Below, one piece after another: positions 7,342 through 26,353 of a DNA stretch of 64,000 nt. Under the pieces are notes generated by a model, which worked only from the letters and a program-made list of their open reading frames with translations, did no database searches and had not been told where the DNA came from. This stretch comes from Methanoregulaceae archaeon (lineage in GTDB: Bacteria > Armatimonadota > Fimbriimonadia > Fimbriimonadales > Fimbriimonadaceae), in the NCBI GenBank assembly GCA_020850325.1, contig JADZEW010000016.1, positions 186,001 to 250,000 of the forward strand, written 5' to 3'. Position 1 is the first letter of the stretch. Every line of letters begins with the position of its first letter. Position numbers and translations under genes: made by a program.

Positions 7342-7898
7342 GGCTGTGGTTCGAATGATTCCGGGGTCGCGACGAGGGTGAGTTTGGCATTCGCCCGAAG
7401 GGCCTCGATACCTCTTACCCGATACGATTCGTAGTCGACTTCGATTCCTTTCTGGGCGTCGATGATCCCTTTGACCCCGTCGTACACGAGCTCTCCGCAG
7501 TAGAGAGCACCTTTGGGATTCTCGTTGGTCACCCGCACGCCTCCGATCAGCCGAAGCGAGTTCGTGCCCTTGTCGGCGACGGCTTCGGTGGCGACAAACG
7601 AGCTGGCGGGTTGACCCTGCGTGTAGAACACACCCTTCACGTTTTTCATCCGGCCGCCGAATCGCTGGTCGGTGGTGTATTCGAGCGTGGCCGACTCCCA
7701 TTCGATGCTCCAGAGGATCGTTCCCTTTCCGTCGTCGCTCTTGCGGTCGAGCTGTCCCCCCGCCGAGTTCACGGTACGCGTAACGGGAGGTTCATCCTTG
7801 GGGTCACCTTTGGGCAGGTTCGCCTCCGGAAGCGGCACGGAAGGGGTGCGGCAACCGGCAAGGAGAGCGAGCATTAGGAGAGGACCGGCAACGCGGAT
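7338..7898 (-). CDS. lptC: LptC-like lipoprotein, probable AUC start
   Basis: The gene product anchors the periplasmic bridge to the LptB/F complex in known systems. It has the lipobox LLAGC followed by a spacer and an LptC-type beta-rich domain (TLEYTTDQRFGGRMKNVKGVFY, LRLIGGVRVTNENPKGALYCGELVYD). The start is unusual. The only ATG (7874) overlaps the rlmN stop as TAATG but leaves just seven residues before the lipobox Cys, too few for a signal peptide. An ATC codon at 7898 lies 8 nt after a strong GAGGAGG site and would give a normal 16-residue lipoprotein signal, MIRVAGPLLMLALLAG then Cys. A far-upstream TTG in the same frame is a weaker choice. The stop overlaps the lptA ATG. Confidence 0.75.
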   Translation of the reverse strand: MRVAGPLLMLALLAGCRTPSVPLPEANLPKGDPKDEPPVTRTVNSAGGQLDRKSDDGKGTILWSIEWESATLEYTTDQRFGGRMKNVKGVFYTQGQPASSFVATEAVADKGTNSLRLIGGVRVTNENPKGALYCGELVYDGVKGIIDAQKGIEVDYESYRVRGIEALRANAKLTLVATPESFEPQP

Positions 7899-8938
7899 GA
7901 CGTTGGCCTCCTCGCGAACCGGCCTGCATGCTGGCCGGCAAGTTGTCCGCAAGCGGCGGCGATGTCGTGCCCGCGCTCGACGCGTTCCGTAACGTTCACT
8001 CCCCGGCGCTTCAGTTCGGCCTTGAAGGCACGCACCCGTTCGCGCGAGGGGCGCTTGAACGACTCCTCGGTGGCGACAAAGTTGAACGGGATCACGTTCA
8101 CAACACTGGGCATTCCTTGGATGAGACGTGCCAGTTCCGCCGCCTGAGTCGGTGTATCGGTGAGTTCGGCGAGCAGCAGATACTCGATCGTGATTTTGCG
8201 TCCGGTCGCTCGGCCGTAGGCGCGCATCGCTTCGATAACCTCGGCAATCGGCCACCGCTTGTTAACCGGCATCAGCTGCGATCGGATCTCGTCGTTGGTC
8301 GAATGGAGACTCAGCGCAAGGTGGATCGGAAGCTTGAGATCGGCGAGTTCGTAGATCTGCGGAACGAGACCGACCGTCGACACGGTCAAGTGGCGGTAGC
8401 TCAGTCCGACCTCGTCGTGAAGCAGCCTCAGCGTCTTCACCAAGTTCTCCAGGTTCAGCAGAGGCTCCCCCATGCCCATGAAGACGACATGCGAGATGCG
8501 CCGTTCGGTGAGACGCTGGAGCATCAGGTACTGGCCGATCATTTCCCCCACGGAGAGGTTGCGGTCGAAACCACCCAGCCCCGTCGCGCAGAATCGGCAC
8601 CCCATCGGGCAGCCGACCTGTGAACTGAGGCAGCACGAAACCCGGTCGGCATAGGGCAGCAACACGCACTCGTAGACTTGCTCGTCGCCCCCGTGGACCA
8701 GGAGCTTGTCGACGCCGTCCGTCGAGGTCACGTGACGGGCAACCTCCAAGGGTTGAAGCGACCATTTCTCGGCCATCCGAGCACGGAAGTCCGCCGGGAG
8801 GTCGGTCATCTGCGCCCAATCGGCGACCGCTCGGCGGTAGATCCAGTCGGCAATCTGACGCCCGCGCATCTTCGCGCGGGGCTCATCACCCAGGGCTTGG
8901 GCGATCTCCTCCCGCGTCATCCCGACCAGGGTATCCAC
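7874..8938 (-). CDS. rlmN: Dual-specificity 23S rRNA/tRNA adenine-C2 methyltransferase
   Basis: This radical-SAM enzyme methylates A2503 of 23S rRNA and A37 of some tRNAs. The radical-SAM motif CxxxCxxC appears in SQVGCPMGCRFCATG, preceded by the family stretch YECVLLPYADRVSCCLSSQVGCPM in part, and followed by GMGEPLLNLENL and LHSTNDEIRSQLMP. The C-terminal Cys needed for the methyl-Cys mechanism is seen in GHDIAAACGQLAG. I prefer GTG 8938 (VDTLVGMTREEIAQALG), which lies 6 nt after TACACT; an ATG at 8965 would add nine residues and lies upstream of that box. The gene heads the lpt operon, and its TAA is shared with an internal lptC ATG. Confidence 0.93.
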   Translation of the reverse strand: MDTLVGMTREEIAQALGDEPRAKMRGRQIADWIYRRAVADWAQMTDLPADFRARMAEKWSLQPLEVARHVTSTDGVDKLLVHGGDEQVYECVLLPYADRVSCCLSSQVGCPMGCRFCATGLGGFDRNLSVGEMIGQYLMLQRLTERRISHVVFMGMGEPLLNLENLVKTLRLLHDEVGLSYRHLTVSTVGLVPQIYELADLKLPIHLALSLHSTNDEIRSQLMPVNKRWPIAEVIEAMRAYGRATGRKITIEYLLLAELTDTPTQAAELARLIQGMPSVVNVIPFNFVATEESFKRPSRERVRAFKAELKRRGVNVTERVERGHDIAAACGQLAGQHAGRFARRPTSSALPVLS

Positions 8939-8996
8939 AGTGCGAGTGTACCGGTTGAGCTCCACCAGGTCGGCGGTGAGTGGATTGGGCCAGTTC

Positions 8997-9025
8997 TTGC
9001 ATGTTTCGTCGAGAACTGTTATGAT
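8997..9025 (+). promoter_or_regulatory. Sigma70-type promoter of propeller gene 1, leaderless
   Basis: TTGCAT (8997-9002) and TATGAT (9020-9025) are spaced by exactly 17 bp. The ATG at 9031 lies 5 nt after the -10 box, so the expected +1 falls on or next to the start codon and no ribosome binding site fits. Confidence 0.7.
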
Positions 9026-9030
9026 GTCTC

Positions 9031-12000
9031 ATGCACTTTGAGGGGAGAGAGACGTTTAGCCTTTGGCGACTTGCCGGATTGGTCCTGCTTGCCATGGCGG
9101 CACCGGGTTCCATCGCCCAGACGATCCAACTGATCGGGGGGAATAGGCTCACTGAAGCCGAAGCAGTAGATGCCGTAGGGAACCGGGGAGTCGTGCTCAG
9201 AAAGACCATTGACGGGTTCTTCGAGGTCAGACTCCGGCCCGGTCTAGACCGCATCAGGTTCGCTGAGCAGATGAAGCAGGCGAACATTGAGTTTGTTTTC
9301 GAACTTTCCGCCACCCGCGTTGATCGCCAGAACTTGGCCTCGCTCCGTAGGCACATCGACTATGTGAAGGCGAGGAACAAGGTCCAGGCTACAGGCCCAG
9401 ATTACAGGAAGACGCCCGGAATCTATGCGGCGCTCGAGTACTACCTTTCGACCCGGGTGGGCCTGGATGGAACCGTCGATCAGGATCTCATCAAGCGAGC
9501 GGTGGAACACCGAGAGCAGCTGCCGCCCGCTTCGCTGGGCGGTGGTGGCCACGCCCCGAGCGCGTCGTTCTCGTACATTGGACCCAAGAATCTGGACATT
9601 CCGTATCAACAGTTCTTTGGTCGAGCACCGCTCGCCGGGCGGGTGAATGGCATCGCTTGGTCGCCATCGAATGCCAACGTCATCTATCTCGCAACCGCAG
9701 GCGGCGGGGTCTGGAGAAGTTCTGACCAGGGAAAGAACTGGTCGTTCCGCAGCGCGGGTTGGCAGTTCCTACACACGACCGGCATCGCCGTCCATCCAAC
9801 CAACGAGAACTTCGTTCTTGCGGGCACGGGCGACGCTTACGGCTTCTTCGGAGCGCAGACCATGGGGATAATGCGGTCAACGAACAGTGGATCCACATGG
9901 ACCCAGGTTGGCGCGGCGCAGTTCGGAAACAACATTGTTAGCCGTATCATCTACGATCCGGACAATCCAAACACGGTACTAGCCCTCACCATGGGCGCGA
10001 ACGGCGATATCTGGCGCTCGACCGATGGCGGTTTGACGTGGACCGCGACCGATGCACCAGCTCGATCATGGCAGGACATCGACTTTGGGACATTGTCCAA
10101 TGGAACTCGTGAGTTGTGGGCGGTCTCGGGCGATGGCGGAACTGGCGGCACGATCATGCGTTCGACAAATGGAGGTCGTAACTGGACAGCCATGACCTCT
10201 CCGATGGGCGGAGCGCAGGAGCGCCTCGACGTGGCCTGCTCCAAGGTCACTTTTGGCAAGGTCTACCTCCTGAGTTCGGAACAAGACACCATGTGGCGCA
10301 CGCAAAACAGCGGAACTACGTGGACCAACCTAGACTTGCCGGCTTCGACGAGCTTTCCCAAGGAGCAGGGAAACAACCCGAACTACAACTGGGCCCAAGA
10401 CGAGTACGACATGCATGTGACCACGGCGGCCTATGGCAACGAAGAGAACGTCTGGGTTGGATTGATCACCCTCGCCGTATCAACGGACAGCGGCGCGACA
10501 TGGGTGAACTTCAGCCGGAGTTACGACGAAGACCTTGGCTCAAGAATGCACTGCGACCAGCACACCTTTACACCGCACCCTACCTACGGCTACATCGGCC
10601 TCGCGGGATGTGACGGTGGGGTGTTCCGGACTCAGTACTACCCAGGGTTTCTCGATTCGATCGCTTCGCTGAACGGCACCCTCTACAACCATCAGTTCTA
10701 TCATATGTCGCTTCACCCCACCAGTTACGCCGACCGGATGATGGGGGGGACCCAGGACAATGCCTCACCGGCTTCCCGTGGCAACCTGGCTTCTTGGAAG
10801 AACCTCTACGCGGGTGACGGATCGTGGAGTGACTTCGACCCTAACGATCCGAACATCCACGTGACTAGCTCTCAGCGTGCTTCGGTCTACCGCTACACGA
10901 CCGCATCGGATACCGAACCCGATCGATTGGAGCCGGAGGGGGGATTCGCCTCTGCAGAGTTCATAGCCCCCCTCATCTATGCCTGGGACGGCACGTTGCT
11001 TGTTGGGGCATCCAATCGGGTGCAGCGGTGGATCGGTGATCGAGACTGGACTTTCTCCGGGACCTCGATGGTGGGCCAGCCGCGGGTTATTGCCAAGCAG
11101 GGCATCAGTTCTGCGCGGATGTATGCGGGCACATCAGCTGGACGCGTCTATCGTAGCGACGATCACGGCCACAACTGGACTCGAATCGATGCCGCACCCC
11201 TATCGGTGGATGCGATCGGTGGCATCGCGGTTTCGTGGGCGAGTTCAACCGACGTATTGGTTGGGATCAATCGACCGACCGGTGGATTGTTCAGATGCAG
11301 CAACACCTTGGCGGCCAGCCCGGTTTGGACGGACGTGAGCAGTACGGGCTCACTCGCCTTGCCGCAAACGCCAGTCAACGCCGTGGTGCGCGATCCCTAT
11401 CAGAATCCGATATGGTACGTTGGCACCGACGTCGGTCTCTTTATGACGACCGACTCGGGCGCGACCTGGAAGAACATGAATGCGCTTGGACTGCCCAATG
11501 TTCACGTGAACGCCCTCACCGTTTCCAAGGACAAGGCATACCTCTACGTTGCCACGTTCGGGCGAGGTATCTGGCGCATCCCGCTCGTGAACAACACCTT
11601 CAACTCGTTTACGCTTTCATCCAGCGAGGTATACGGCGACCGGTCGCTGATCGGCACTCTGCAGTTGGCGACGCTCGCGCCTGCGGGCGGAGTTCGGGCC
11701 GTCTTGTCGACCGCGAGCAGCTACGTGACGATTCCCAGCGAAGTTTGGATTCCCGGCAATGCAAGTTCGGTTTCGTTCACGATCACCACGTCGCAGGTGT
11801 TCTCGTCCAACAAGACGGCCGTCATCTTTGCGAACTGTATGGGGCAAACGAGATCGGCGACCTTGACCATCAAGCCGTATCCGACGGTGGCTTCCTTCGT
11901 CCTCACTAAGACCTATCTCTATGGCGGATCTAGCACACAGGGAACGGCAACCCTCTCGGCGGCTGCTCCGTTCGTCGGCTCTATGACCTTCACCGAGGAC

Positions 12001-12732
12001 TCACCGCTGGTGAGCGTAGTTTCTCCGATCACAATCGCGGCCGGAGAGACTTCGAAGGTGACCGTAATCACAACGACCTCTACCGCAAGCACCCGTGCCG
12101 TTCCGATTACGGCAGCATATAAGGGAACGACCAGAGTGGCCACCTTATCGGTGTTTCCTGTGCCCGTTGTCACCGACTTGTCGTTCAGTCCTAACCCGCT
12201 CTTGGCCGGTTTCAGCACCACGTGTACGATAACGCTGAGCGTTCCCGCACCTATCACCACGACGGTCGTCATGACGGACGACTCGCCGTACATTGCCACC
12301 TCAAACCGCACGATTCAGGCCGGTAATCAAACGCTTAGCTTCCTGATCTATGGGAGCAACCCTGACTCTGATGTGGATGTGAAGGTCAACGCAAAAGTGC
12401 TCGAAGATCCGGGAAACCACGTGAGCGCGACACTGACTCTTTGGCGGTCGGTCTTGCAGAGCATCGCAGTGTCTCCTAACCCGATCAAGGGTGGTGAACC
12501 TGGCATCGGCACCATCTCGCTCAACCGTCCGGTCACCCTGAATCGGGTCGTTCAGCTTGGTTCAGAGAACACGAGCCTGGTGAGCGTGCCCGCGGGGGTG
12601 ACTGTTGTTGCGGGCAATAATGCGGCAACTTTCACCGTGCGGACCGTCCGGGTGACGAGCACGCAGAACGTCGTGGTAGGGGCACAGTATCTCGGTCAAA
12701 TCGTCCACACGACGGTGCAACTGAAGCCATAG
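9031..12732 (+). CDS. Secreted Asp-box beta-propeller protein with Ig-like repeats, paralogue 1
   Basis: The first of four tandem paralogues (1,233 residues). Layout: a signal peptide (cleavage near IAQT, residue 29), an N-terminal domain of about 150 residues that I do not recognise (with HIDYVKARNKVQATGP and ALEYYLSTRVGLDGTVDQD), then a propeller of about 660 residues rich in BNR/Asp boxes (SSDQGKNW, STNSGSTW, STDGGLTW, STNGGRNW, STDSGATW, TTDSGATW), then four Ig-like repeats of about 90 residues to the end. Asp-box propellers occur in sialidases, GH74 glucanases and VPS10/Ycf48-type proteins; I see nothing that decides between enzyme and binding protein. There is no lipobox, transmembrane anchor or PEP-CTERM tail, so it is likely exported or held by non-covalent contacts. 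It is preceded by a leaderless-type promoter. Confidence 0.85.
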   Translation: MHFEGRETFSLWRLAGLVLLAMAAPGSIAQTIQLIGGNRLTEAEAVDAVGNRGVVLRKTIDGFFEVRLRPGLDRIRFAEQMKQANIEFVFELSATRVDRQNLASLRRHIDYVKARNKVQATGPDYRKTPGIYAALEYYLSTRVGLDGTVDQDLIKRAVEHREQLPPASLGGGGHAPSASFSYIGPKNLDIPYQQFFGRAPLAGRVNGIAWSPSNANVIYLATAGGGVWRSSDQGKNWSFRSAGWQFLHTTGIAVHPTNENFVLAGTGDAYGFFGAQTMGIMRSTNSGSTWTQVGAAQFGNNIVSRIIYDPDNPNTVLALTMGANGDIWRSTDGGLTWTATDAPARSWQDIDFGTLSNGTRELWAVSGDGGTGGTIMRSTNGGRNWTAMTSPMGGAQERLDVACSKVTFGKVYLLSSEQDTMWRTQNSGTTWTNLDLPASTSFPKEQGNNPNYNWAQDEYDMHVTTAAYGNEENVWVGLITLAVSTDSGATWVNFSRSYDEDLGSRMHCDQHTFTPHPTYGYIGLAGCDGGVFRTQYYPGFLDSIASLNGTLYNHQFYHMSLHPTSYADRMMGGTQDNASPASRGNLASWKNLYAGDGSWSDFDPNDPNIHVTSSQRASVYRYTTASDTEPDRLEPEGGFASAEFIAPLIYAWDGTLLVGASNRVQRWIGDRDWTFSGTSMVGQPRVIAKQGISSARMYAGTSAGRVYRSDDHGHNWTRIDAAPLSVDAIGGIAVSWASSTDVLVGINRPTGGLFRCSNTLAASPVWTDVSSTGSLALPQTPVNAVVRDPYQNPIWYVGTDVGLFMTTDSGATWKNMNALGLPNVHVNALTVSKDKAYLYVATFGRGIWRIPLVNNTFNSFTLSSSEVYGDRSLIGTLQLATLAPAGGVRAVLSTASSYVTIPSEVWIPGNASSVSFTITTSQVFSSNKTAVIFANCMGQTRSATLTIKPYPTVASFVLTKTYLYGGSSTQGTATLSAAAPFVGSMTFTEDSPLVSVVSPITIAAGETSKVTVITTTSTASTRAVPITAAYKGTTRVATLSVFPVPVVTDLSFSPNPLLAGFSTTCTITLSVPAPITTTVVMTDDSPYIATSNRTIQAGNQTLSFLIYGSNPDSDVDVKVNAKVLEDPGNHVSATLTLWRSVLQSIAVSPNPIKGGEPGIGTISLNRPVTLNRVVQLGSENTSLVSVPAGVTVVAGNNAATFTVRTVRVTSTQNVVVGAQYLGQIVHTTVQLKP

Positions 12733-12738
12733 TCATCG

Positions 12739-12775
12739 GATGCCTCCTCATCGTTGCCGATTGCGAGGAGGCATC
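12739..12775. terminator. Hairpin between convergent genes
   Basis: GATGCCTCCTC (12739-12749) and GAGGAGGCATC (12765-12775) form a perfect 11-bp stem with a 15-nt loop, just after the first propeller gene and before the stop of the convergent lipoprotein gene. There is no T-run on either side, so it is a likely but non-canonical bidirectional terminator. Confidence 0.55.
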
Positions 12776-12790
12776 GAATGGAGGTGCTCA

Positions 12791-13720
12791 TTACCGCTTG
12801 ACTTCGCAAACCGCGCGAAGCGTCAGCGGAGCCATCTGCGGGCTCTCCGAGAAGAACGCCCAGAACACCTCGCCCGAAATCTCGTCGATTTCCCCGTTGG
12901 CCTCGATGATCCGGCCGGGCAGCTTGACGATCGTCGACATCGAGATCAGACCGCTGTCCCCTTCGCCGCTGCTTTCGCTCTGAGCCTTTTCCTTGGTCGG
13001 GCCCATGATCTTCTCCGAGTCCATCTTGGCCATTAAGGTTCGGATGGCCTTGAGGCGGGCATCCTTGTCCATCTTGTCGCCAAAGAACTTCTCGAACTGG
13101 ACATCCATCGTGCGCCCAAAGCTGCGGCGGAGTTCGCGCTCGCCCAGGTCCGGGTGCAGGATTAGCGAAGGCAGCATGGGCCGCGTCGGGCCGAAGATGA
13201 TGCGCCAGAGGTCGATCATCGCGGCTTGCGACATCTCTTTGATCTGAGCGTCGGTGACCTCGATGCCGGCCAGGCTCTCGCGCAACATGGTCAGCATCTC
13301 CCCTTCGGGCGAGGGCATGTCGGGCTTCTTCTCACCCGTGTAGGTGATCGTCTCGAGATACTCGTAGCGGCCGTTGCCCAGGTCCTTCACCGTCACCGTG
13401 TTTGAAAGGATGGCCTTGCCCTTCTGCTTGACCCGGAGGTCGTCGGTGATCGTCTCGCCGAGCTTTGCCTGTCGCACCCCGGTGAACACCAGATACTCCT
13501 TTTCGGTGGTTTGGCTGGTCTTCCAGTCGGCGCCCGAGGGCAGGAAGAGGAACTGATCGAACGTGTTTGGCTTGCCCATCATGTCCTCCTTTTGGATGGA
13601 GAACTTGACGGTGCGCGTCCATGCCCCGTCCTCGGCGACCACGGTATCAGTGTTGGTACGAACGCACCCCGCAACCACCGCAAGGGCAGCGAGAGGAAGG
13701 AGTCGGAGCAAAATCTTCAT
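12791..13720 (-). CDS. Lipoprotein of unknown function between propeller genes 1 and 2
   Basis: The 309-residue protein starts with a lipoprotein signal, MKILLRLLPLAALAVVAGC, so its mature N-terminus would be a lipidated Cys19. The body is soluble, with a beta-rich first half (VKFSIQKEDM, EYLVFTGVRQ, GRYEYLETITY) and a more helical middle. A low-complexity linker (KEKAQSESSGEGDSG) precedes a final beta segment. I do not recognise a family. ATG 13720 is chosen because the lipobox spacing is then normal; CATAAT lies 6 nt upstream. The gene runs against its neighbours and shares a 96-bp divergent promoter region with propeller gene 2. Its place inside the array suggests a partner role at the surface, but nothing in the sequence proves it. 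Confidence 0.8.
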   Translation of the reverse strand: MKILLRLLPLAALAVVAGCVRTNTDTVVAEDGAWTRTVKFSIQKEDMMGKPNTFDQFLFLPSGADWKTSQTTEKEYLVFTGVRQAKLGETITDDLRVKQKGKAILSNTVTVKDLGNGRYEYLETITYTGEKKPDMPSPEGEMLTMLRESLAGIEVTDAQIKEMSQAAMIDLWRIIFGPTRPMLPSLILHPDLGERELRRSFGRTMDVQFEKFFGDKMDKDARLKAIRTLMAKMDSEKIMGPTKEKAQSESSGEGDSGLISMSTIVKLPGRIIEANGEIDEISGEVFWAFFSESPQMAPLTLRAVCEVKR

Positions 13721-13759
13721 GACAAGATTATGAAATGTAAACAAACTACGCATTTCTGC

Positions 13760-13788
13760 TTGCAATCAAGGGGCAAACCGGCTATCCT
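13760..13788 (+). promoter_or_regulatory. Sigma70-type promoter of propeller gene 2
   Basis: TTGCAA (13760-13765) and TATCCT (13783-13788) are spaced by 17 bp. Unlike copies 1, 3 and 4, this gene has a leader of about 22 nt with a purine-rich ribosome binding site (GGAGGGAG) before the ATG at 13817. Confidence 0.7.
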
Positions 13789-13816
13789 AGGGTAACCCGA
13801 GAAATCGGAGGGAGAT

Positions 13817-16800
13817 ATGAAAACACAATTGCGTTCAGCCTGGCTCTTGGTAGCCGCGCTGTCTGCCTCGGTCTCCGTGGCGCAATCCAACCTCTTGGTG
13901 GGTTCGCAGGGAGCGACGGAGTCATCCGTTCAGGCAGCAGTCGGAGATCAAGGGAAGGTCCTTGGCAAGAATGATGACGGCTTCTTCATCGTTCGCCTTA
14001 CGCGAGACACGGATCGTGGTCTTGCCATTCAGAAGCTTAAGAAAGCGAACCTCGAGTTCGTTTTCAACGAGTCGGCCACTCAGGTCAACCGTCACAACCT
14101 CTATTCGTTGCGTCAGCACATTGACTATGTGACGGCACGTCACAAAGTTCAAGCAACTGGCCCCGGCTACCGGACGACTCCAGGCTACTATGCGGCGTTG
14201 GAGTACTACCTCTCAACCCGTGTCGGGCCCGACGGGACCGTGGATCAGGACCTGATTCGGCGGGCGGTTGCGCAGCGCGACCAACTGCCGCCGGCATACA
14301 TGGGTGACCCCCAGGGGAACGCTCCGAGCTCTTCCTTCAGCTACGTCGGCCCGAAGGGCCTCGACATTCCTTACCAGCAGTACTACGGCATCGCTCCCTT
14401 GGCGGGCCGCGTTGCCGGTATCGGCTGGTCCAAAACGAATCCGAACGTGATCTACCTCGCAACGGCGGGCGGCGGCGTTTGGAAGTCGACGGATCAGGGC
14501 TCGAACTGGAGCTTCCGCAGCAGCGGATGGCAGTACCTGCACACCAGCAGCGTGGCGGTGGATCCTCTCAACGAGAACAACGTTCTCGTGGGAACTGGTG
14601 ACTACCGTGGCTTTTTCGGAGCCCAGACGATGGGAATCAAGCGGTCCACCAACGGCGGCTCGACTTGGACGACCGTCGGTGCCGCACAGTTTGGCAACAA
14701 CATCGTTACCAAGATTGTCTACCACCCGACGAGCACCAACATCGTTATTGCTCTGACGGCCGGCGCCGATGGCGACATTTGGCGATCGACGGACGGCGGT
14801 GTGACATGGGCGGCAACCGATGCTCCTGCCGGCAACTGGGACGACTGCGACTTCGGACCAGTTTCGAACGGCGTTCGTCAGTTCTGGGCAGTTGGCGGTA
14901 ACAGCACCGCAGGCGGCCGGATTGCACGTTCGGTGAACCAGGGTGGCAACTGGACCATCGTGGCCGACGCGACCTCGACGAGTCAATCGATCATGGACGT
15001 CGCCTGTTCGAAGAATACGTTTGGAAAGGTCTATGTCTTGCATCCCGGAAACAACACGATCTTCCGGACGACGAACAGTGGTTCGTCGTGGACCAACCTG
15101 AACTTGTCGACGAGCGGGACGTTCCCGAATGCGCTGGGTACCAACTCCCTGTACAACTGGAGCCAGGACACCTACGATCTCCACGTGGAGACGGCGCTTT
15201 CAGGCAATACGGAGTTCGTCTACTGCGGATTGATCACGCTCGCCGTTTCGACGGATAGCGGAGCCACATGGTCGGACTTTGGCCGCAGCTACCAGAACAA
15301 CTCTCGGTTGCACAATGACCAGCACTGCTTTACGCCGCACCCAACGAACGGCAATATCGGCATGGCTGGCAACGATGGCGGCGTGTACCGCATCCTAAAC
15401 TTTCCTGGAGTGCTCACAAGCGTGACCTCCATGAACAACAACCTGTACAACACGCAGTTCTATCACATGTCGGTTCACCCGACGAACTACGCGAACTATA
15501 TCATGGGCGGCACCCAGGATAACGCTTCGCCCGCCTCGAAGGCGAACATGAACGCCTGGAAGAACCTCTACGCCGGTGACGGCGCATGGAGCGACTACCA
15601 GCCGAGCAACCCGGCCGTTCACATCACGTCCTCGCAGAGAGCCTCCGTCTATCGGTATACGACGGATGGCGACTTGACTCCGGACGGAATCAGCCCCAAT
15701 GGCGGCTTCGGGTCGGCCAACTTCATCGCACCGTTGACCTTCGCCGGTTCCAGCACGCTGCTGGTCGGTGCAAACAACACGGCGATGCGTTGGACGGGAG
15801 GCACCTCGTGGGCCTCTTCGACCGGATTCGGCAGCAATGCCCGAACTTTCGCCGTGGGCACCTCCAACACGGCTCGCGTTTACGCGGGTACGAACAATGG
15901 CGGCGTTTGGCGCAGCGACAACACGGGTTCGACGTGGACCCAGATCGATACGACGTTGCCGAACAGCGCGATCGGCGGCATTGCCACCTCGTGGACAAAC
16001 TCCGCGGACGTCATTGTCGGTATCAACCGGCCGACGGGTGGACTCTTCCGTTGCTCGAACACCACGGCGGCCACGCCGGTGTGGACGAGCGTCAGTGGGA
16101 CGGGAGTCTTGGCTCTGCCCGAGACCCCGATCAATGCCGTGATGCGTGATCCTTACCAGAGTTCCATCTGGTACGTCGGCACCGACATCGGTGCCTTTAT
16201 GACCACGGACAGCGGTGCGACATGGCGCAATATGAGCAACCTCGGGTTGAGCAATGTCCATGTCAACGCGTTCGCGATTCCGGCTAACAAGAGCTACCTC
16301 TACGTGGCGACGTTCGGGCGCGGCATCTGGCGCATCCCGCTCACCAACAACACGTTCAACTCGTTCACGACGTCCCTCAGCCAGGTCTACGGTGGATCTT
16401 CGGTCAGCGGAACGCTCACGCTCGCTTCGCCTGCTCCGGCAGGAACTCGGGCAATCCTTAGCGAGACGAGTCCCTACGCGTCGATGCCTACAGGCGTCAC
16501 ATTCTCAACGAATGCGACATCGGCCTCGTTCGTGATCAGCACTAGCCAGGTCTTCTCGTCCAACAAGATCGCGTACCTGTACGCGAACCTGATGGGCACG
16601 ACCCGCTCGGTAGCTCTGACGATCAAGCCGTATCCGTACGTGTCTTCGTTCGTGCTGGCGAAGTCCTACCTTTACGGTGGGGCAAGCACGACGGGAACGG
16701 CGACGATCTCGGCACCGGCTCCGTTCACCGGATCGTTCACGTTCTCCGAGAACTCGGCGTTCGTGAGCGTGGTGTCGCCGATCACGATTGGCGCTGGCCA

Positions 16801-17485
16801 ATCGAGCAAGGTCACGACGATCAGCACGACGAAGCCGGCGACGGTTCAGTCGGTGCCGATCACCGCGGCCTACAAGGGAACGACCCGAGTCGCAACCTTG
16901 GTCGTCTATCCGCATCCGGTGGTTGCGAGCCTTACGTTCACGCCCAATCCGTTGCTCGGTGGTAACTACTCCGTGTGCAGGATCACGCTGAACGTTCCCG
17001 CTCCGATCACCACACAGATCGCGATGCAGGACGACTCGCCGTACATCGCGACCTCGACCAAGACCATGCAGGCTGGGCAACAAGTCCTGAGCTTCTCGGT
17101 CTATGGCAGCAACCCGCCGCAGGACGTCAACATCGCCGTCCAAGCACGGGTATGGGAGGACACGGGTCAAGCTACAAACGCGACCCTGGAACTGCTACGA
17201 TCCGAGCTCACCTCGATCGTGGTTAATCCCAACCCCATCCCAGGTGGCAAGTTGGGTGTTGCAACGATCAGGATCAATCGGGCACAGCCGTTGAAGAAGG
17301 GCATTATGCTCTTCTCGGACAACCCGAATGTCTTGACCGTTCCTCGAAGCGTCACGCTCCCGGCTGGCGCTACGGCGGTAAATGCTACGGTGAGAACGTT
17401 CAAGCCAGCAGTAAGCACCAACGTGGTGGTTTCTGCGACCTACTTGAGCACGACGGTTCGAACGACCGTTGTGGTCACTCCGTAA
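13817..17485 (+). CDS. Secreted Asp-box beta-propeller protein with Ig-like repeats, paralogue 2
   Basis: Same layout as the preceding paralogue, 1,222 residues. The signal peptide MKTQLRSAWLLVAALSASVSVAQ is followed by LLVGSQGATESSVQAAVGDQGKV in part, then the shared N-terminal domain (HIDYVTARHKVQATGP, ALEYYLSTRVGPDGTVDQD). The propeller has Asp boxes such as STDQGSNW, STNGGSTW, STDGGVTW and STDSGATW, and the C-terminus has four Ig-like repeats. It is closest to copy 1 by eye (for example GGTQDNASPAS and HVNAFAIP blocks). This copy has the strongest expression signals: a near-consensus promoter, a good ribosome binding site, C/G-ending codons over long runs, and a canonical terminator. It is therefore the likely main product of the array. 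The function is not known. Confidence 0.86.
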   Translation: MKTQLRSAWLLVAALSASVSVAQSNLLVGSQGATESSVQAAVGDQGKVLGKNDDGFFIVRLTRDTDRGLAIQKLKKANLEFVFNESATQVNRHNLYSLRQHIDYVTARHKVQATGPGYRTTPGYYAALEYYLSTRVGPDGTVDQDLIRRAVAQRDQLPPAYMGDPQGNAPSSSFSYVGPKGLDIPYQQYYGIAPLAGRVAGIGWSKTNPNVIYLATAGGGVWKSTDQGSNWSFRSSGWQYLHTSSVAVDPLNENNVLVGTGDYRGFFGAQTMGIKRSTNGGSTWTTVGAAQFGNNIVTKIVYHPTSTNIVIALTAGADGDIWRSTDGGVTWAATDAPAGNWDDCDFGPVSNGVRQFWAVGGNSTAGGRIARSVNQGGNWTIVADATSTSQSIMDVACSKNTFGKVYVLHPGNNTIFRTTNSGSSWTNLNLSTSGTFPNALGTNSLYNWSQDTYDLHVETALSGNTEFVYCGLITLAVSTDSGATWSDFGRSYQNNSRLHNDQHCFTPHPTNGNIGMAGNDGGVYRILNFPGVLTSVTSMNNNLYNTQFYHMSVHPTNYANYIMGGTQDNASPASKANMNAWKNLYAGDGAWSDYQPSNPAVHITSSQRASVYRYTTDGDLTPDGISPNGGFGSANFIAPLTFAGSSTLLVGANNTAMRWTGGTSWASSTGFGSNARTFAVGTSNTARVYAGTNNGGVWRSDNTGSTWTQIDTTLPNSAIGGIATSWTNSADVIVGINRPTGGLFRCSNTTAATPVWTSVSGTGVLALPETPINAVMRDPYQSSIWYVGTDIGAFMTTDSGATWRNMSNLGLSNVHVNAFAIPANKSYLYVATFGRGIWRIPLTNNTFNSFTTSLSQVYGGSSVSGTLTLASPAPAGTRAILSETSPYASMPTGVTFSTNATSASFVISTSQVFSSNKIAYLYANLMGTTRSVALTIKPYPYVSSFVLAKSYLYGGASTTGTATISAPAPFTGSFTFSENSAFVSVVSPITIGAGQSSKVTTISTTKPATVQSVPITAAYKGTTRVATLVVYPHPVVASLTFTPNPLLGGNYSVCRITLNVPAPITTQIAMQDDSPYIATSTKTMQAGQQVLSFSVYGSNPPQDVNIAVQARVWEDTGQATNATLELLRSELTSIVVNPNPIPGGKLGVATIRINRAQPLKKGIMLFSDNPNVLTVPRSVTLPAGATAVNATVRTFKPAVSTNVVVSATYLSTTVRTTVVVTP

Positions 17486-17495
17486 CCGTCTAACC

Positions 17496-17532
17496 AAGCC
17501 CCCGTCCGCTCATCCGCGGACGGGGGCTTTTT
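17496..17532 (+). terminator. Rho-independent terminator of propeller gene 2
   Basis: A perfect 13-bp GC-rich stem (arms AGCCCCCGTCCGC and GCGGACGGGGGCT, loop TCATCC) followed by a T-run. It begins 11 nt after the stop and is the clearest intrinsic terminator in the window. Confidence 0.95.
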
Positions 17533-17560
17533 GTTGCGTCGCTTCGAGCGAATCCCAACC

Positions 17561-17566
17561 TATAAT
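17561..17566 (+). promoter_or_regulatory. Consensus -10 box of propeller gene 3, leaderless
   Basis: A consensus TATAAT lies 7 nt before the ATG at 17574, so the transcript would begin at the start codon. The -35 region is poor. Another ATG at 17565 overlaps the box and is thus unlikely to be used. Confidence 0.65.
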
Positions 17567-17573
17567 GTTACTT

Positions 17574-20500
17574 ATGCGTTTCTGGTTGCGATCGATGGTG
17601 CTAGGCGCGATGATGGGAGGGCTATCCCTCGCGGTCGCCGATACACTGCTGGTCGGATCGCCCAACCTCGACGAGCGCACGGCGCTTGCGAACGTCGGCG
17701 ATCTTGGAAAGGTGGCCGGCAAGAACCCGGATGGCTTCTACGAGGTCGTCGTTTCCGCTACCAGCCGACAACAGGCATTGAAGGGGCTGAAGTCGAAGTT
17801 CAGGTTTGCCTTTGATTCGCGAGCATCACAAGTCGACCCACGCTCACTGCCCTCCTTGCGCAACCACATCGAATACCTGAGGGCTCGCTCCGAGCTTCTG
17901 GCACATGGCCCCGAGGCCAGGCCAACGGCGGGATTCTACGAGGCCCTCGCTTACTATCTCGAGCCTCGGGTTGGCCCCGATGGCACCATTGACCAAGATG
18001 CGGTCAAGCGTGCCGCAGAACATCGGGATCAAATGCCGCATGCCTGGGTTGGTACGAACACCAATGCGCCCTCCTCAACCTTTACGTTTATGGGGCCCAA
18101 GAACTTGGGGGTCGCGTACCAACTCTACATGGGCGTCGGACCCGTCTCAGGCCGCGTGAACGGGATCGCCTACGCGAAGAGCAATCCGAACATCGTCTAC
18201 CTGGCCACCGCGGGGGCGGGTGTTTGGAAGTCGGTCGATCAAGGCACGAACTGGTCCTTTCGAAGCCACGACTGGCCCTTTCTTCACACCAACAGCGTTG
18301 CCGTTCATCCCACCAATCCGAATCTCGTCCTCGTAGGGACGGGGGACTACAAGGGCTTTTTCGGGGCCCAGACTCAGGGCATCATGCGCTCGACCGATGG
18401 TGGATCGACGTGGACCGCGGTGGGCAAGACGTTTGACAGTCAGGTCGTTACGAGGGTGCTTTTTCATCCCGACAATCCAAACATCGCCCTTGCCCTAACG
18501 GGCGGCGCAACCGGCAAAATCTGGCGCTCGACCGACGCGGGTGTAACGTGGTCGGCCACCAACGCAGTCGAGGGCCGCTGGGACGATATCGACTATGGCC
18601 CCGTGAACTCGAAGGGCACTCGCCAGATCTGGGCCGTCGGTGGTAACAACGAGGCAGGCGGAAGGATCGCGATGTCCACGAACCAGGGTCTGACGTGGGC
18701 GACGATTAACGAGCCCACGGTAGGTGTTCAATCCGTGCTCGATATCGCGTGCTCGAAGAAGACGATTGGAAAAGTCTGGGTGATGTACCCCAATAGCAGC
18801 GCCGTGTTCCGCACGACGAATAGCGGAACGAACTGGACGAATCTGTCGCTCACCAGCAACGCCACGTTCCCCAACCACCGCGATCCTGGCGACTCCTTCA
18901 ACTGGCGCCAAAGGAACTACGATTCCTACGTAGAGACGGCTCTCTACGGCGACACGGAGATTCTCTATGTCGGACTCATCACACTAGCGTCCTCGGCGGA
19001 TGATGGGACCACTTGGACGGATGTTGCAAGAGGCTTTCGCGAAGATGCTCGGATGCACGTGGACCAACACTGCTTCACACCCCATCCCACAAACGGATCG
19101 ATCGGGCTGGCGGGGAATGACGGCGGCGTGTTCCGAGTCGTTAATGTCCCTGGCGACACACCGACGACCACCTCACTCAACGCCAAGTTGTTCGCAACCC
19201 AGCACTACCACGTCTCGGTGCACCCTGAGAGCCACGGAACCTACATGATGGCGGGAGCCCAAGACAATGCAACGCCCGCCTCTCGAGGACTGCTGGACGC
19301 CTGGTCAAACCTCTACGGTGGGGACGGGGGGTGGAGCGCCTTTCTGCCCAGTAACCCGAATGTGCATTTCACAACGGGCCAGAGAGGAGCCGTCTATCGC
19401 TACGCTACTAGCTTGGCGAACGTACCCACAGAGATTCGGCCGCCCACTACGGCTGGAACAGCATTCATTGCCCCGATGGTGATTGCCGATTCCGGCCGCG
19501 TGCTCATTGGAGCGCAACAGCGGGTTCAGCGATGGTCGTTCTCGGGCACCCTCTGGTACAGCTCTGCTGACTTCTCAACGGAGATGCGAACCCTTGCGGT
19601 TGCACCCAGTAATCTGCGACACGTCTATGCGGGCGGGTTTGATGGGAGTATCCGAAAGAGCACAGACAATGGCGAGAACTTCTCCCCGTTCCGGAGAGCC
19701 GCATTTGCTCCGGTGAGTGCCTTGGCCGTATCTTGGACCAACGATGACGACCTTCTCGTAGGGCATCAGGGCCCAGAGGGTGGCCTCTTTCGGACGACCG
19801 GCTTTGACCTGGGCCGGGCGTGGACCAATGTCTCCGGCGTCGGTGCTACCGGCCTGCCCGCATCACCCATCAATGCCGTTGCCCGCGATCCCCATCAGAG
19901 CGACGTTTGGTACGTTGGCACGGACGTCGGAGCCTTCATGACCACGAATGGAGGCCAAACCTGGACCAATATGAACCCGCTGGGGCTCGGCAATATCCAT
20001 GTCAACGCCTTCGCGATCCCGCCCGACAAGACCTTCCTCTACGTTGCGACGTTCGGCCGCGGTGTTTGGCGGATTCCGCTGGTCAACAATCAGCTCACTG
20101 CCTTCGAGGTGAATCAGGACATCGTACTCGGCGATCAGCCGATCATGGCAACCCTACGACTCACGCATCCGGCACCGCAAGGCACGACGGTCAAACTGGC
20201 AAGCGCAAGTCCCCACGTGACTATCCCTACCAGCCTGGACTTTCCAGCCGGGACCACGGAGCGGACGTTCACGATCCAAACCAACCAGGTGTTCTCCTCG
20301 CCCCGCACGGCCATCGTGTTTGCGACCTGCATGGGTGCAACCCTCAGTCGAGAACTCACCATTCTGCCTTACCCGACGGTGGCTTCTTTGACCATCCCGC
20401 GCAACTACATGTACGGCGGAAGCTGGCAGTACGCGACCGCCACCCTCTCCGCCCCGGCTCCCTTGGCGGGTTCGCTCACGTTTACAGATGATTCGCCTTT

Positions 20501-21227
20501 CTTGAGCGTGCAGTCTCCGATCACGGTCGGGTTTGGACAGTCTCAGAAGCTGACGACCGTTTCGACAACGAATCCCAGTTCGATGCAGACGGTGACGATC
20601 ACGGCTTCCTACAAGGGGACAACCCGCACGTTGACGGTGTACGTGTATCCGATGCCGGTCATCAAGTCGGTCTCCATGCATCCGATTCCGCTGATCGGGG
20701 GCTTTGTCGGTACGGCGACGGTCACTTTGCAACAGCCAGCACCGATCACGACCGAGATCGCGATTGCGGAGAACTCGCCCTATGTGACCATCCCGTCGCC
20801 GCGAACCCTGCAAGCGGGACAGACCCTGGTGAACATCCCGGTCTACTCGATCAACCCGCTGCAAGACGAGACGATCGGCTTCAATGCGCGGATCGTCGGG
20901 GATCCGGCCGCGCCCAAACCGGGCACCATCGACTTGAGACGGTCTCAGTTGACGTCGCTGTCGGTCAGCTTGAACCCCATCTCTGGCGGGAAGAAGGCCG
21001 TTCTCACGGTGACCCACAACTTGGCGCTACCGGTCTCGCGGGTCGTTTCGTTGAGTTCATCGAACCCGGCGGTCGCATCGGTGCCGGCGGGAGTGACGAT
21101 GATCGCCGGCAGTGCATCGGCCACCGCGACGGTCACCACCTACGCGGTAACGCAGTCCACGACGGTGACTCTGACCGCGAGCTTCAATGGAACGACGCGG
21201 CAGTCGACACTCACAATTCTTCCCTGA
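17574..21227 (+). CDS. Secreted Asp-box beta-propeller protein with Ig-like repeats, paralogue 3
   Basis: The 1,217-residue protein begins with signal peptide MRFWLRSMVLGAMMGGLSLAVADT, then the N-terminal domain (LLVGSPNLDERTALANVGDLG, split here, and HIEYLRARSELLAHGP), the Asp-box propeller (SVDQGTNW, STDGGSTW, STDAGVTW, STNQGLTW, TTNGGQTW) and four Ig-like repeats. The start at 17574 was chosen because TATAAT lies just before it; the frame is open upstream into the terminator of copy 2, which cannot be coding. It is the most divergent of copies 1-3, with GGTQDN changed to AGAQDN, and some propeller blades have lost Asp-box residues. No cell-wall or membrane anchor is visible at the C-terminus (LTILP). 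Confidence 0.84.
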   Translation: MRFWLRSMVLGAMMGGLSLAVADTLLVGSPNLDERTALANVGDLGKVAGKNPDGFYEVVVSATSRQQALKGLKSKFRFAFDSRASQVDPRSLPSLRNHIEYLRARSELLAHGPEARPTAGFYEALAYYLEPRVGPDGTIDQDAVKRAAEHRDQMPHAWVGTNTNAPSSTFTFMGPKNLGVAYQLYMGVGPVSGRVNGIAYAKSNPNIVYLATAGAGVWKSVDQGTNWSFRSHDWPFLHTNSVAVHPTNPNLVLVGTGDYKGFFGAQTQGIMRSTDGGSTWTAVGKTFDSQVVTRVLFHPDNPNIALALTGGATGKIWRSTDAGVTWSATNAVEGRWDDIDYGPVNSKGTRQIWAVGGNNEAGGRIAMSTNQGLTWATINEPTVGVQSVLDIACSKKTIGKVWVMYPNSSAVFRTTNSGTNWTNLSLTSNATFPNHRDPGDSFNWRQRNYDSYVETALYGDTEILYVGLITLASSADDGTTWTDVARGFREDARMHVDQHCFTPHPTNGSIGLAGNDGGVFRVVNVPGDTPTTTSLNAKLFATQHYHVSVHPESHGTYMMAGAQDNATPASRGLLDAWSNLYGGDGGWSAFLPSNPNVHFTTGQRGAVYRYATSLANVPTEIRPPTTAGTAFIAPMVIADSGRVLIGAQQRVQRWSFSGTLWYSSADFSTEMRTLAVAPSNLRHVYAGGFDGSIRKSTDNGENFSPFRRAAFAPVSALAVSWTNDDDLLVGHQGPEGGLFRTTGFDLGRAWTNVSGVGATGLPASPINAVARDPHQSDVWYVGTDVGAFMTTNGGQTWTNMNPLGLGNIHVNAFAIPPDKTFLYVATFGRGVWRIPLVNNQLTAFEVNQDIVLGDQPIMATLRLTHPAPQGTTVKLASASPHVTIPTSLDFPAGTTERTFTIQTNQVFSSPRTAIVFATCMGATLSRELTILPYPTVASLTIPRNYMYGGSWQYATATLSAPAPLAGSLTFTDDSPFLSVQSPITVGFGQSQKLTTVSTTNPSSMQTVTITASYKGTTRTLTVYVYPMPVIKSVSMHPIPLIGGFVGTATVTLQQPAPITTEIAIAENSPYVTIPSPRTLQAGQTLVNIPVYSINPLQDETIGFNARIVGDPAAPKPGTIDLRRSQLTSLSVSLNPISGGKKAVLTVTHNLALPVSRVVSLSSSNPAVASVPAGVTMIAGSASATATVTTYAVTQSTTVTLTASFNGTTRQSTLTILP

Positions 21228-21242
21228 CTTAGCCAAACAGCC

Positions 21243-21272
21243 TTGGCTCTCTGCTGATAATCCGGCTATTCT
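21243..21272 (+). promoter_or_regulatory. Promoter of propeller gene 4, overlapping a small hairpin
   Basis: TTGGCT (21243-21248) and TATTCT (21267-21272) are spaced by 18 bp, and the GTG start at 21279 lies 6 nt after the -10 box. The TTGGCT element is also the right arm of a 6-bp hairpin with AGCCAA (21232-21237), just after the stop of copy 3. Confidence 0.6.
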
Positions 21273-21278
21273 GAAAGG

Positions 21279-24200
21279 GTGCTTGGCTTTCGAAACGTCC
21301 GGACAGCTTTCAGAGTTGGGTTGGTTCTTGCGATCTTCACGGTTGCGGGATACTGCGGCGCGCAAACCACGCTGCTTGTGGGTTCGCCCGGTGCTACCCA
21401 ATCCATGGTAGAGACAGCCCTGAGGGGCCGCGCCCGCGTCCTCGGACAGTCCGACGGTTTCTACCGAGTCCGAGTCGATCGCTCCGCAGACGTTAGAGGC
21501 GTAAAGTCGCGCCTGCATGAGGCGGGCATTACCTACATCTTCCCGCAATCCGCGGCCCTCATCGATCGCAACTCGCTACCTTCGGTGAAGCAGCACATCG
21601 CCTACTTCAAAGCCCGGGCTAAGATCTTGGGCGACGACGGCGAGGCCGTCCGGAAGTCCGCGGGATTCTACGAGGCGCTTGCGTACTACCTCGAGCCCCG
21701 CGTCGGCCTCGATGGGCAGCTGGACCAAGACGCCATACTGCGCGCTGTTGCCCAGCGTGAGCGGCTGCCACTGGCGTGGATGGGCCGCGACCCCAAGGCG
21801 CCCAGCGCGTCGTTCAACTACGTCGGGCCCAAGAACCTCGACATCCCCAAGCAGATTTACTACGGGACTCCGCCGCTGAGCGGGCGGGTCAACGATGCCG
21901 AGTATGCCCCCAGCAACCCCAATGTCATCTATGTCGCAACCGTGGGAGCAGGCATTTGGAAGTCCACCGACCAAGGTACGAACTGGAGCTTCAAGAGCAG
22001 CGGTTGGGAGTTTCTCCACACGACTGCAGTCGCCGTGCATCCCACCAACGAGAACATCGTTCTTGTCGGGACTGGTGACTACTACGGGATGTTCGGGGAG
22101 CAGACCATGGGGATCATGAGGTCTACCAACGGGGGCACCACATGGACTCAGGTCGGCACGGGGACGATGAGGCTGGATGTGGTCACGCGAGTTGTCTTTA
22201 ACCCCGATGATCCCAACATTGTGCTCGCACTCACCGACAGCTCGGACGGCGACATCTGGCGATCGACCGACGGAGGGGTGACGTGGGCAGCAACCAATGC
22301 TCCCGCAGGGAACTGGGATGATATCGACTACGGCATCCGGTCGGGTGGAACCCGGGAGTTCTATGCGGTAGGTGGCAATAGTGAAGCGGGAGGCCGCATC
22401 TACCGATCCACGAATGCCGGATCGACTTGGTCGGTCGTCAATGATGCCACCTCGACGGTGCAAGGGATGCTCGATGTCGCATGCTCAAAGAAGACCTTTG
22501 GCAAGCTGTGGGTGCTTCACCCGGGGGGAAACACCATCTTCCGTTCTTCAAACAGTGGGGCCTCTTGGACGAACCTCAATCTCACGTCAGAGCCCACGTT
22601 CCCGAACGAGCTTAACGAAGACGAGCCTCTCTTCAACTGGGGACAGGATCTGTACGATCTCCACGTAGAAACCGCCCTCTACGAAGGGACCGAGATGCTC
22701 TACTGCGGGCTGATCACCCTGGCCGTTTCCACGAATGACGGCAACACCTGGACGGACGTGGGGAAGAGCTACAAATCGAACTCGCTTATCCACAACGACC
22801 AGCATAGCTTCTCTCCTCACCCCCTCAATGGCTCCGTTGGGCTAGTTGGGTGCGACGGTGGGTTGTTCCGAATCCAGCACGTCCCCGGCAATTTCACCTC
22901 AATCGTGTCCCTGAACGAGGAGCTCTACACGACCCAGTTCTATCACATGTCGGTCCATCCGACCAACGCCAATCACGTGATGGGTGGTACTCAAGACAAC
23001 GCGTCGCCAGCCTCTCGGGGGAGTCTTTCGAACTGGAAGAACCTGCGCGATGGCGACGGATCCTGGAGTGCATTCCTGCCCAGCGACCCGGCCATCCACT
23101 TCACGAGTGCCCAGCGTGGCTCCATCTACCGCTACACGTCGAGCACCGATTACAACCCAGCTTCAATTACGCCTGAGTGGACCCTGGTGAACTTCATCGC
23201 GCCCATGGTGATCTCGGGATCGGGCCGAGTGCTGGTCGGTGCGAACCTTGCGGTTCAACGATGGGCCGGGACCGGAATCGTCTGGACCCCAGCCTCGCCT
23301 TCGTTCAGCACGAACGTCCGGACGCTCGCCGTGGGGATTTCGAACCGAAATCGCGTGTACGCCGGCCTCGACAATGGCGACCTCTATCGCAGCGACAACA
23401 ACGCTGACACCTTCACCAAGATTGATACGGCGGCGCTACCCGACTCGGCGATCGGTGCCATCGCATGCAAAGCGACGAGTTCGACCGACGTGCTGGTCGG
23501 GTTCCAAAGATCGACCGGTGGTCTTTTTCTCTGCCGTGATACTTCGGCGGCCAGCCCAGTATGGACCGAGGTGAGCGGCACGGGCGATACTGCCCTACCC
23601 GCATCTCCGATCAACGCGATCATCTGGGATCCGCACGACCCCAGCGTTTGGTACGTAGGCACCGACGTTGGCGCGTTCATGACCACCGACTCGGGGGCCA
23701 CTTGGGCAAACATGAATGGACTCGGGATCGGCAATGTCCACGTCAACTCGTTCGCGATTCCCGAGGGGCAGGATTACTTGTACGTCGCGACCTTTGGCCG
23801 CGGCATCTGGCGGATTCCCCTGGTCAACAATGACCTCCTAACGCTTACGCCATCGGTCTCCGAGGTCTTCGGCGGGCGTTCACTCGCCGCGACAGTCACC
23901 ATTCAGCATCCAGCCCCCCCGGGGACGCGGGTGACCCTGAGCGACAACAGTTCGTACGTGTCGATGCCCTCGTCGGTCCAAGTCACCCAAGGCTTGACGG
24001 CGGCGGCCTTTACGATCGATACAACTCAGGTGTTCTCATCGAATCGAACCGTGACGTTGACGGCCTCGGCCTTCGGCAACAGTATCACCGCGACCCTTGT
24101 GGTGAAGCCCTATCCGACGGTCGCGTCGTTCGTCTTGGCGAAGACCTATCTCTATGGAGGTGCGGCAACGACGGGCACGGCTACCTTGTCCGCCCCCGCC

Positions 24201-26273: not shown

Positions 26274-26294
26274 AAGTCTGGGCCTGATACCAAG

Positions 26295-26312
26295 TGCGTC
26301 CGTAAGGACGCA
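26295..26312. promoter_or_regulatory. Perfect 7-bp hairpin upstream of the MFS gene
   Basis: TGCGTCC and GGACGCA flank a GTAA loop, 22 nt upstream of the MFS start. It could be an operator or a terminator for the upstream minus-strand gene; there is no T-run. Confidence 0.35.
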
Positions 26313-26353
26313 TGCGTTGCAGTTTACAAGCCAGAGCCTGAAGGATTCCGTGC

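Follow-up and report, generated by a model that had tools for sequence, protein, structure and literature searches.

A conserved Shine-Dalgarno-led gene in an array of otherwise leaderless-type propeller genes of a Fimbriimonadaceae genome

Background

Leaderless genes of the 'TA-led' class (Zheng et al. 2011, PMC3160421) are marked by a TA-like signal some 10 bp upstream of the start codon and are reported there to make up more than 20% of the genes in Actinobacteria and Deinococcus-Thermus; the same paper states that the type of initiation generally drifts between related bacterial genes. Here, we analyse an array of four same-direction genes (copies 1-4, 1217-1233 codons each) for secreted Vps10/Asp-box propeller proteins, which differ from one another in this trait and lie in a 64,000-nucleotide stretch of DNA (the window; G000:C16:186001-250000) from a 3.52-Mb draft genome (G000). 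Copies 1, 3 and 4 fit the TA-led class, as do 90 of the 264 operon-first genes sampled here, in a host that belongs to the Armatimonadota. In this analysis, only two genomes carry the array, G000 and that of a sister species (G001), the latter being fragmented, with copy 3 split over two contigs.

Translation of leaderless mRNAs starts in dependence on the initiator tRNA bound to the ribosome, and a high ratio of the initiation factors IF2 and IF3 promotes it (PMC10783764). The same paper, a survey of pairing between 16S rRNA and mRNA, gives Fimbriimonadia the value 25 in a '%' column, low beside most entries shown and in line with the weak Shine-Dalgarno (SD) signal found here, the definition of the column being unconfirmed; the survey passages concern anti-SD pairing, not the leaderless promoters of Fimbriimonadia. 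A literature search, mostly outside of which lay the subscription papers, found nothing on leaderless promoters in Fimbriimonadia/Armatimonadota or on a Fimbriimonas S-layer, and the accessible part of PMC5397173 mentions neither 'Armatimonad' nor 'Fimbriimonas'.

At the protein level, the array copies share propeller repeats (PF15902) with the Vps10/sortilin and Asp-box propeller proteins; unlike the Vps10/sortilin proteins, they are bacterial, secreted and equipped with an extra N-terminal domain and C-terminal immunoglobulin (Ig)-like domains. SLH-barrel envelope proteins, such as the SlpA type of Deinococcus-Thermus and the SLH (S-layer homology) porins, have their make-up matched by one separate gene of G000; the array proteins are not of that type.

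Results

Copy 2 stands apart from the other members of the array in its initiation type, in the hairpin behind it and in its codon use, and does so likewise in G001; anatomy, conservation, codon ranking and copy turnover are established by computation. Over both species, the two copy 2 genes read as SD-led and all six other array genes as leaderless (types assigned by a model for the window copies and by eye for the G001 genes). We lean, if only slightly, towards the view that copy 2 is the conserved and insulated core member of the array, the other copies being separately promoted and leaderless, with some of them coming and going. The elements of the array are (window coordinates):

8997-9025, forward strand: copy 1 promoter-like site TTGCAT-17-TATGAT, with TG-N preceding the -10 and the ATG 5 nt on
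9031-12732, forward strand: copy 1, leaderless-type, secreted Vps10/Asp-box propeller protein of 1233 amino acids (aa), PF15902 at 6.7e-27
12739-12775, no strand: perfect 11-bp hairpin between copy 1 and a convergent 309-aa gene, U-tract on neither strand
13760-13788, forward strand: copy 2 promoter-like site TTGCAA-17-TATCCT, kept in G001
13789-13816, forward strand: leader region of copy 2, with the mRNA 5' end predicted near 13795, kept in G001
13817-17485, forward strand: copy 2, 1222 aa, PF15902 at 1.2e-20
17496-17529, forward strand: predicted intrinsic-terminator hairpin of copy 2, 14 perfect pairs and a 6-nt loop, then TTTTTG
17561-17566, forward strand: copy 3 -10 element TATAAT, 7 nt before ATG 17574, same layout in G001
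17574-21227, forward strand: copy 3, leaderless-type, 1217 aa
21243-21272, forward strand: copy 4 promoter-like site TTGGCT-18-TATTCT, with GTG 21279 following after 6 nt, spacing equal in the G001 counterpart 4b
21279-24968, forward strand: copy 4, leaderless-type, GTG start, 1229 aa

An earlier note on this DNA had credited copy 2 alone with a full set of strong expression signals, and its account of the 5' side is borne out: the -35 (TTGCAA, 13760-13765) and the -10 (TATCCT, 13783-13788) are 17 bp apart, and a predicted leader of ~22 nt contains a strong SD string (GGAGGGAG, 13807-13814) that is purine-rich, close to the ATG at 13817 and far enough from the promoter to leave room for the leader (SD-led posterior 0.94). 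The promoter itself is no better than its neighbours. Every one of the four copies scores 8/12 against the consensus, copy 3 has a perfect TATAAT, and 43 of 264 operon-first genes score as well or better, so that a uniquely strong copy 2 promoter was rejected. A stock promoter scan (threshold 9/12) does not list the copy 2 promoter, and its totals over positions 7500-26500 do not rise above those of shuffled sequences (3 promoters vs 4.4, 14 terminators vs 15.5). Separate control of the copies, as the note supposed, is plausible since each has a promoter-like site of its own. Copies 1, 3 and 4 have gaps of 5, 7 and 6 nt between -10 hexamer and start codon, within the ~5-8 nt that typify a leaderless start, and the posteriors (0.93, 0.97 and 0.89, respectively) agree with their description as leaderless-looking; copies 3 and 4 show the same short arrangement in G001.

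Behind copy 2, the intrinsic terminator described as a perfect 13-bp stem is indeed a perfect, G+C-rich hairpin followed by a U-tract, with 14 pairs instead of 13 (-31.8 kcal/mol, 0 of 200 shuffles as good). Perfect stems of at least 14 bp occur at 5 of 470 sampled gene ends and those of at least 9 bp at 32, against none of 470 shuffled ends (hairpins between convergent genes being counted once for each gene). The copy 2 hairpin was also considered as a repeated element and rejected as such, its exact pattern occurring at one place in each of the two genomes. The companion claim that the other copies lack such a terminator stands for copies 3 and 4, which have no strong 3' hairpin (perfect stems of 6 and 3 bp at best), but only in part for copy 1, where 11 perfect pairs without a U-tract separate it from the 309-aa gene (-23.8 kcal/mol, 0 of 200 shuffles as good). 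A further hairpin is predicted in the copy 2 leader of both species (CCGA-GAAA-TCGG, 13797-13808, overlapping the SD); its energy does not exceed chance expectation, since in each species 26 of 200 shuffles reach as stable a fold, and it was rejected as strong evidence.

The frequency of leaderless starts was assessed on genes predicted by a simple codon model in 580 kb, i.e. the window plus 516 kb of the genome that were chosen, not drawn at random, and that include the ribosomal-protein operon and paralog loci. In operon-first genes the motif TANNNT peaks at -12 from the candidate starts (30 hits, vs 0-8 per position from -45 to -16), with a second, smaller rise at -4 that runs into the start codon. 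A mixture model of 445 of 471 genes, which served both for training and for classification, with displaced positions as the test, placed 34.5% in a leaderless and 45.3% in an SD class. At posteriors >0.7, the 90 leaderless operon-first genes compare with 5-25 of 264 at eight displaced positions, and among the 65 genes with a single candidate start 34% are leaderless vs 3-11% at three displaced positions. Given this excess, the start type of copies 1, 3 and 4 is a common one in this genome, and what is weak genome-wide is the SD signal. The same model recovers an excess in some relatives (G001 14/36 vs 2-4, G008 7/32 vs 0-2, G014 16/59 vs 5-7) and no clear one in others (G018 7/44 vs 0-8, G023 8/40 vs 3-5). 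In the 113 leaderless genes of the G000 sample the two positions before the -10 hexamer (-2 and -1) are G-rich (0.56 and 0.50) and a -35 consensus is not visible, which suggests promoters resembling the extended -10 type.

Between the two species, the promoter and leader of copy 2 are identical in 50 of 58 columns and its hairpin stem-loop in 34 of 34, while in the 57 nt upstream 25 positions are kept for copy 3 and 31 for copy 4 vs 4b. Copy 2 has 83% protein identity between the species (synonymous divergence, dS, 0.88), copy 3 in its two halves 75% and 82% (dS 1.43 and 1.59), and copy 4 vs 4b 64% (dS 1.78); seven flanking genes are 90-98% identical (dS 0.36-0.71). The content of the array varies as well. 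Copy 1 is missing at its place in G001, where the RlmN gene directly adjoins the 309-aa gene (contig C162), and G001 has an extra copy, 4a, so that copies 1 and 4a each occur in one of the two species; copy 4 is the most diverged. A 68-residue piece of the neighbouring major facilitator superfamily (MFS) gene sits between 4a and 4b as the trace of a tandem duplication. This fragment (L046 5206-5409; G001:C171) is 96% identical to the 3' end of the MFS gene.

Codon adaptation index (CAI) values, the check proposed in the earlier note, were computed against 14 ribosomal-protein genes (ten of them checked together, L2 and L12 separately, and S17 and L24 assigned by position and by eye). Copy 2 does rank highest of the four (0.608, bootstrap 95% 0.583-0.635; copies 1, 3 and 4 0.525, 0.542 and 0.568); the 'highly expressed' level is not reached, since percentile 42 of 226 genes is average (mean 0.620, standard deviation 0.066). 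An index contrasting ribosomal-protein with average codon use sets copy 2 at percentile 75 and the other copies at 13-18. The ranking recurs in G001 (computed with G000 weights), with 0.631 for copy 2 vs 0.489-0.555 for the other array copies and a mean of 0.627 over the 42 genes fetched. Outside the array, the paralog C1 lies above copy 2 (0.664) and C8 below it (0.588).

In a tree of the array copies and their homologs, the array copies group apart from the paralogs elsewhere, copy 1 is the sister of copy 2, and copy 2 is nested among leaderless copies; the start types, labelled by eye on 17 of 22 rows, require only two changes. SD-type starts are found in the paralog pair C1/C42, less clearly in C8/C155 (labelled SD-led despite a low best model score of -0.6), and in five of ten homologs from other genera; the remaining five have no clear start type, one leaning leaderless. 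The unlabelled homologs without a clear signal are L019, L020, L059, L060 and L061, of which L020 has a slightly higher leaderless score (1.8 vs 0.0), and a fifth G000 paralog (L051), absent from the tree, was likewise scored without a clear signal. The C1 pair (L050 7353-7397, counterpart in L048) has a TATAAT 36 nt before the ATG, and its SD string, GGGAGGGAGC, is identical in both species, an arrangement much like that of copy 2.

The position of copy 2 within the leaderless copies, at a cost of two changes, favours a leader that copy 2 regained. The first codons of copy 1 (9040-9054) read GAGGGGAGAGAG-ACG, with the ACG 26 nt after the -10, as the copy 2 ATG stands 28 nt after its own; this could be a relic of an SD-led start, which would speak against a regain. 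The relic is suggestive only: of 127 leaderless genes, 5 (copy 1 among them) have a strong SD-like string in their first nine codons, and a MAFFT alignment did not pair the stretches upstream of copies 1 and 2 in the relic register.

All four copies exceed the curated cut-off of PF15902 (Sortilin-Vps10; 74-95 bits vs 33), a family matched 28 times in G000 and 31 times in G001, with several matches to a protein. The best matches among solved sequences are xyloglucan hydrolase / Gly74A chains, in the propeller repeats, and the NCBIfam F510_1955 glycosylhydrolase model stays below its cut-off (72-99 bits vs 175). Every copy begins with a signal peptide (by eye), and the array relatives are 52-63% identical to copy 2. 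From family matches and a structural model, the layout of copy 2 would be a signal peptide, a small N-terminal alpha/beta domain, an Asp-box/Vps10-type propeller and about four C-terminal Ig-like beta-sandwich domains. The model of the mature protein (mean predicted local distance difference test, pLDDT, 60.8; predicted template modelling score 0.32) is of fair quality for the N-terminus and some of the propeller and best in the C-terminal third (pLDDT 71-89 per block from about residue 820); over residues 361-626 pLDDT is <50, too weak to judge a ten-bladed fold. The Foldseek list obtained from this weak model (ciliary proteins first, GH74 enzymes at ranks 4, 10, 13 and 14, query template modelling (TM) score ~0.15) was not used for assigning a function. 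Adhesion or the binding of extracellular polymers is our guess, from the fold class, at what the array proteins may do.

Between the stop of copy 2 and the start of copy 3 lie 88 nt, and downstream of copy 4 follows the MFS transporter gene on the opposite strand. The other close neighbour is:

12791-13720, reverse strand: gene of a predicted lipoprotein (309 aa, lipobox read by eye), leaderless-type, divergent from copy 2

Its product, 97% identical in G001, has no Pfam match at 0.001 (searched as a longer reading frame) and no NCBIfam match at 0.1; its CAI of 0.712 ranks within the top 25 of the 226 genes.

Discussion

We propose that each of the four copies would be transcribed from its own promoter-like site: copies 1, 3 and 4 as leaderless mRNAs that probably begin at or beside the start codon, and copy 2 as an mRNA whose short leader bears a strong SD and whose 3' hairpin may limit read-through into copy 3. 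Copy 2 would then be expressed more than the other copies and serve as the steady core, with copy 3 also kept and copies 1, 4 and 4a forming the variable part of the array.

Several observations weigh against giving copy 2 this status. The U-tract behind its hairpin is degraded in G001, so that its conserved role may be something other than termination; some of the conservation upstream of copy 2 could be due to the divergent 309-aa gene. At the protein level, the ratio of non-synonymous to synonymous divergence (dN/dS) places copy 2 (0.146) between copy 4/4b (0.164) and the two copy 3 halves (0.123 and 0.076), so that the strongest constraint by this measure lies elsewhere than in copy 2, and the C-terminal half of copy 3 is as conserved as copy 2 (82%). 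High dS is found outside the array too (1.08 for the C8 paralog), and the lower dS of copy 2 could stem from gene conversion. The CAI intervals of copy 2 and copy 4 overlap (0.583-0.635 vs 0.540-0.597), and the SD class is weakly defined (hits at 71 of 264 true starts vs 39-72 of 264 displaced ones). In view of the dN/dS values and the dS of C8, the core status of copy 2 rests more on its regulatory regions and codon use than on its protein.

The alternative that survives best is that the initiation type changes by drift, without regulatory meaning, leader and hairpin being incidental and copy 2 merely well kept. Leaderless starts are common here, and they do not coincide with poor codon use: among operon-first genes, with ribosomal-protein reference genes and genes <200 codons excluded, CAI is 0.626 for leaderless (n=69) and 0.613 for SD-led genes (n=45; p = 0.48), so that 'leaderless = weak' fails as a general rule in this genome. 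Drift would also agree with the mere two changes of type over the labelled rows of the tree and with a copy 3 protein about as conserved as that of copy 2. It accounts poorly for the conservation of the copy 2 promoter, leader and hairpin stem, which goes far beyond that of the regions upstream of copies 3 and 4, and for the division of initiation types (two of two against six of six) over both species; we judge drift alone somewhat unlikely and keep to copy 2 as the conserved core.

As leaderless initiation is favoured by a high IF2/IF3 ratio, SD-led and leaderless copies could respond differently to physiology, and in our proposal they would do so to the state of the translation machinery. 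Taken further, the array might be a built-in translational selector, in which the IF2/IF3 ratio, 70S vs 30S initiation or starvation would pick the variant without a dedicated regulator (copy 2 in growth, copies 1, 3 and 4 when leaderless initiation is favoured), an extension to which we give little credence.

The earlier note had taken copy 2 for the main surface protein, perhaps of S-layer type, with the other copies as alternative versions. Its signal peptide (by eye), beta-rich layout, strong SD and hairpin and the best CAI of the four are compatible with this, and the S-layer chains 7ptp and 5ftx occur in the Foldseek list; they do so at ranks 27 and 40, with TM of 0.10-0.13, beside titin and complement, in a list drawn from a weak model. 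A Pfam scan of copy 2 at 0.001 returned PF15902 only and no SLH, which counts against the idea. S-layer proteins without SLH exist, and the lack of SLH alone does not rule out such a role. The codon use of copy 2 is not that of an abundant protein, and the gene that has such codon use lies elsewhere in the genome:

L071 (G000:C7:34001-42000), positions 3738-5684 of the reverse complement, reverse strand: SLH-domain protein with near-top codon adaptation

This 648-aa protein is the sole SLH match of G000, with an N-terminal SLH followed by a coiled coil and a beta-barrel (read by eye). Its CAI of 0.748 (percentile 99.1 of 218 genes, against 41-42 for copy 2) exceeds that of copy 2, its sequence is 98.5% identical in G001, and its gene comes with signals that look by eye like an SD string and a terminator hairpin. 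Judged from these features, it would be a better candidate than copy 2 for a dominant envelope protein, if there is one, and we regard a main-surface or S-layer role of copy 2 as very unlikely.

Least credible of all, in our estimation, is that the leader and 3' hairpins of copy 2 are RNA stability or regulatory elements instead of a plain leader and terminator: both are identical to the letter in G001 (the U-tract is not) and the predictions for the two species agree on the 5' hairpin, but that hairpin is matched by chance as often as described above.

The difference of copy 2 is real and conserved, and the S-layer direction was an over-interpretation. More can be gained from two other results, the prevalence of leaderless starts in this genome and the existence of paralogs that differ in initiation type. 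A 'leaderless' start needs to be judged against the genome in which it occurs, being common here and no mark of poor codon adaptation. The array is a natural set of paralogs differing in initiation type, outside the usual model bacteria, and as such offers a setting in which the effects of SD-led and leaderless initiation on expression may be measured.

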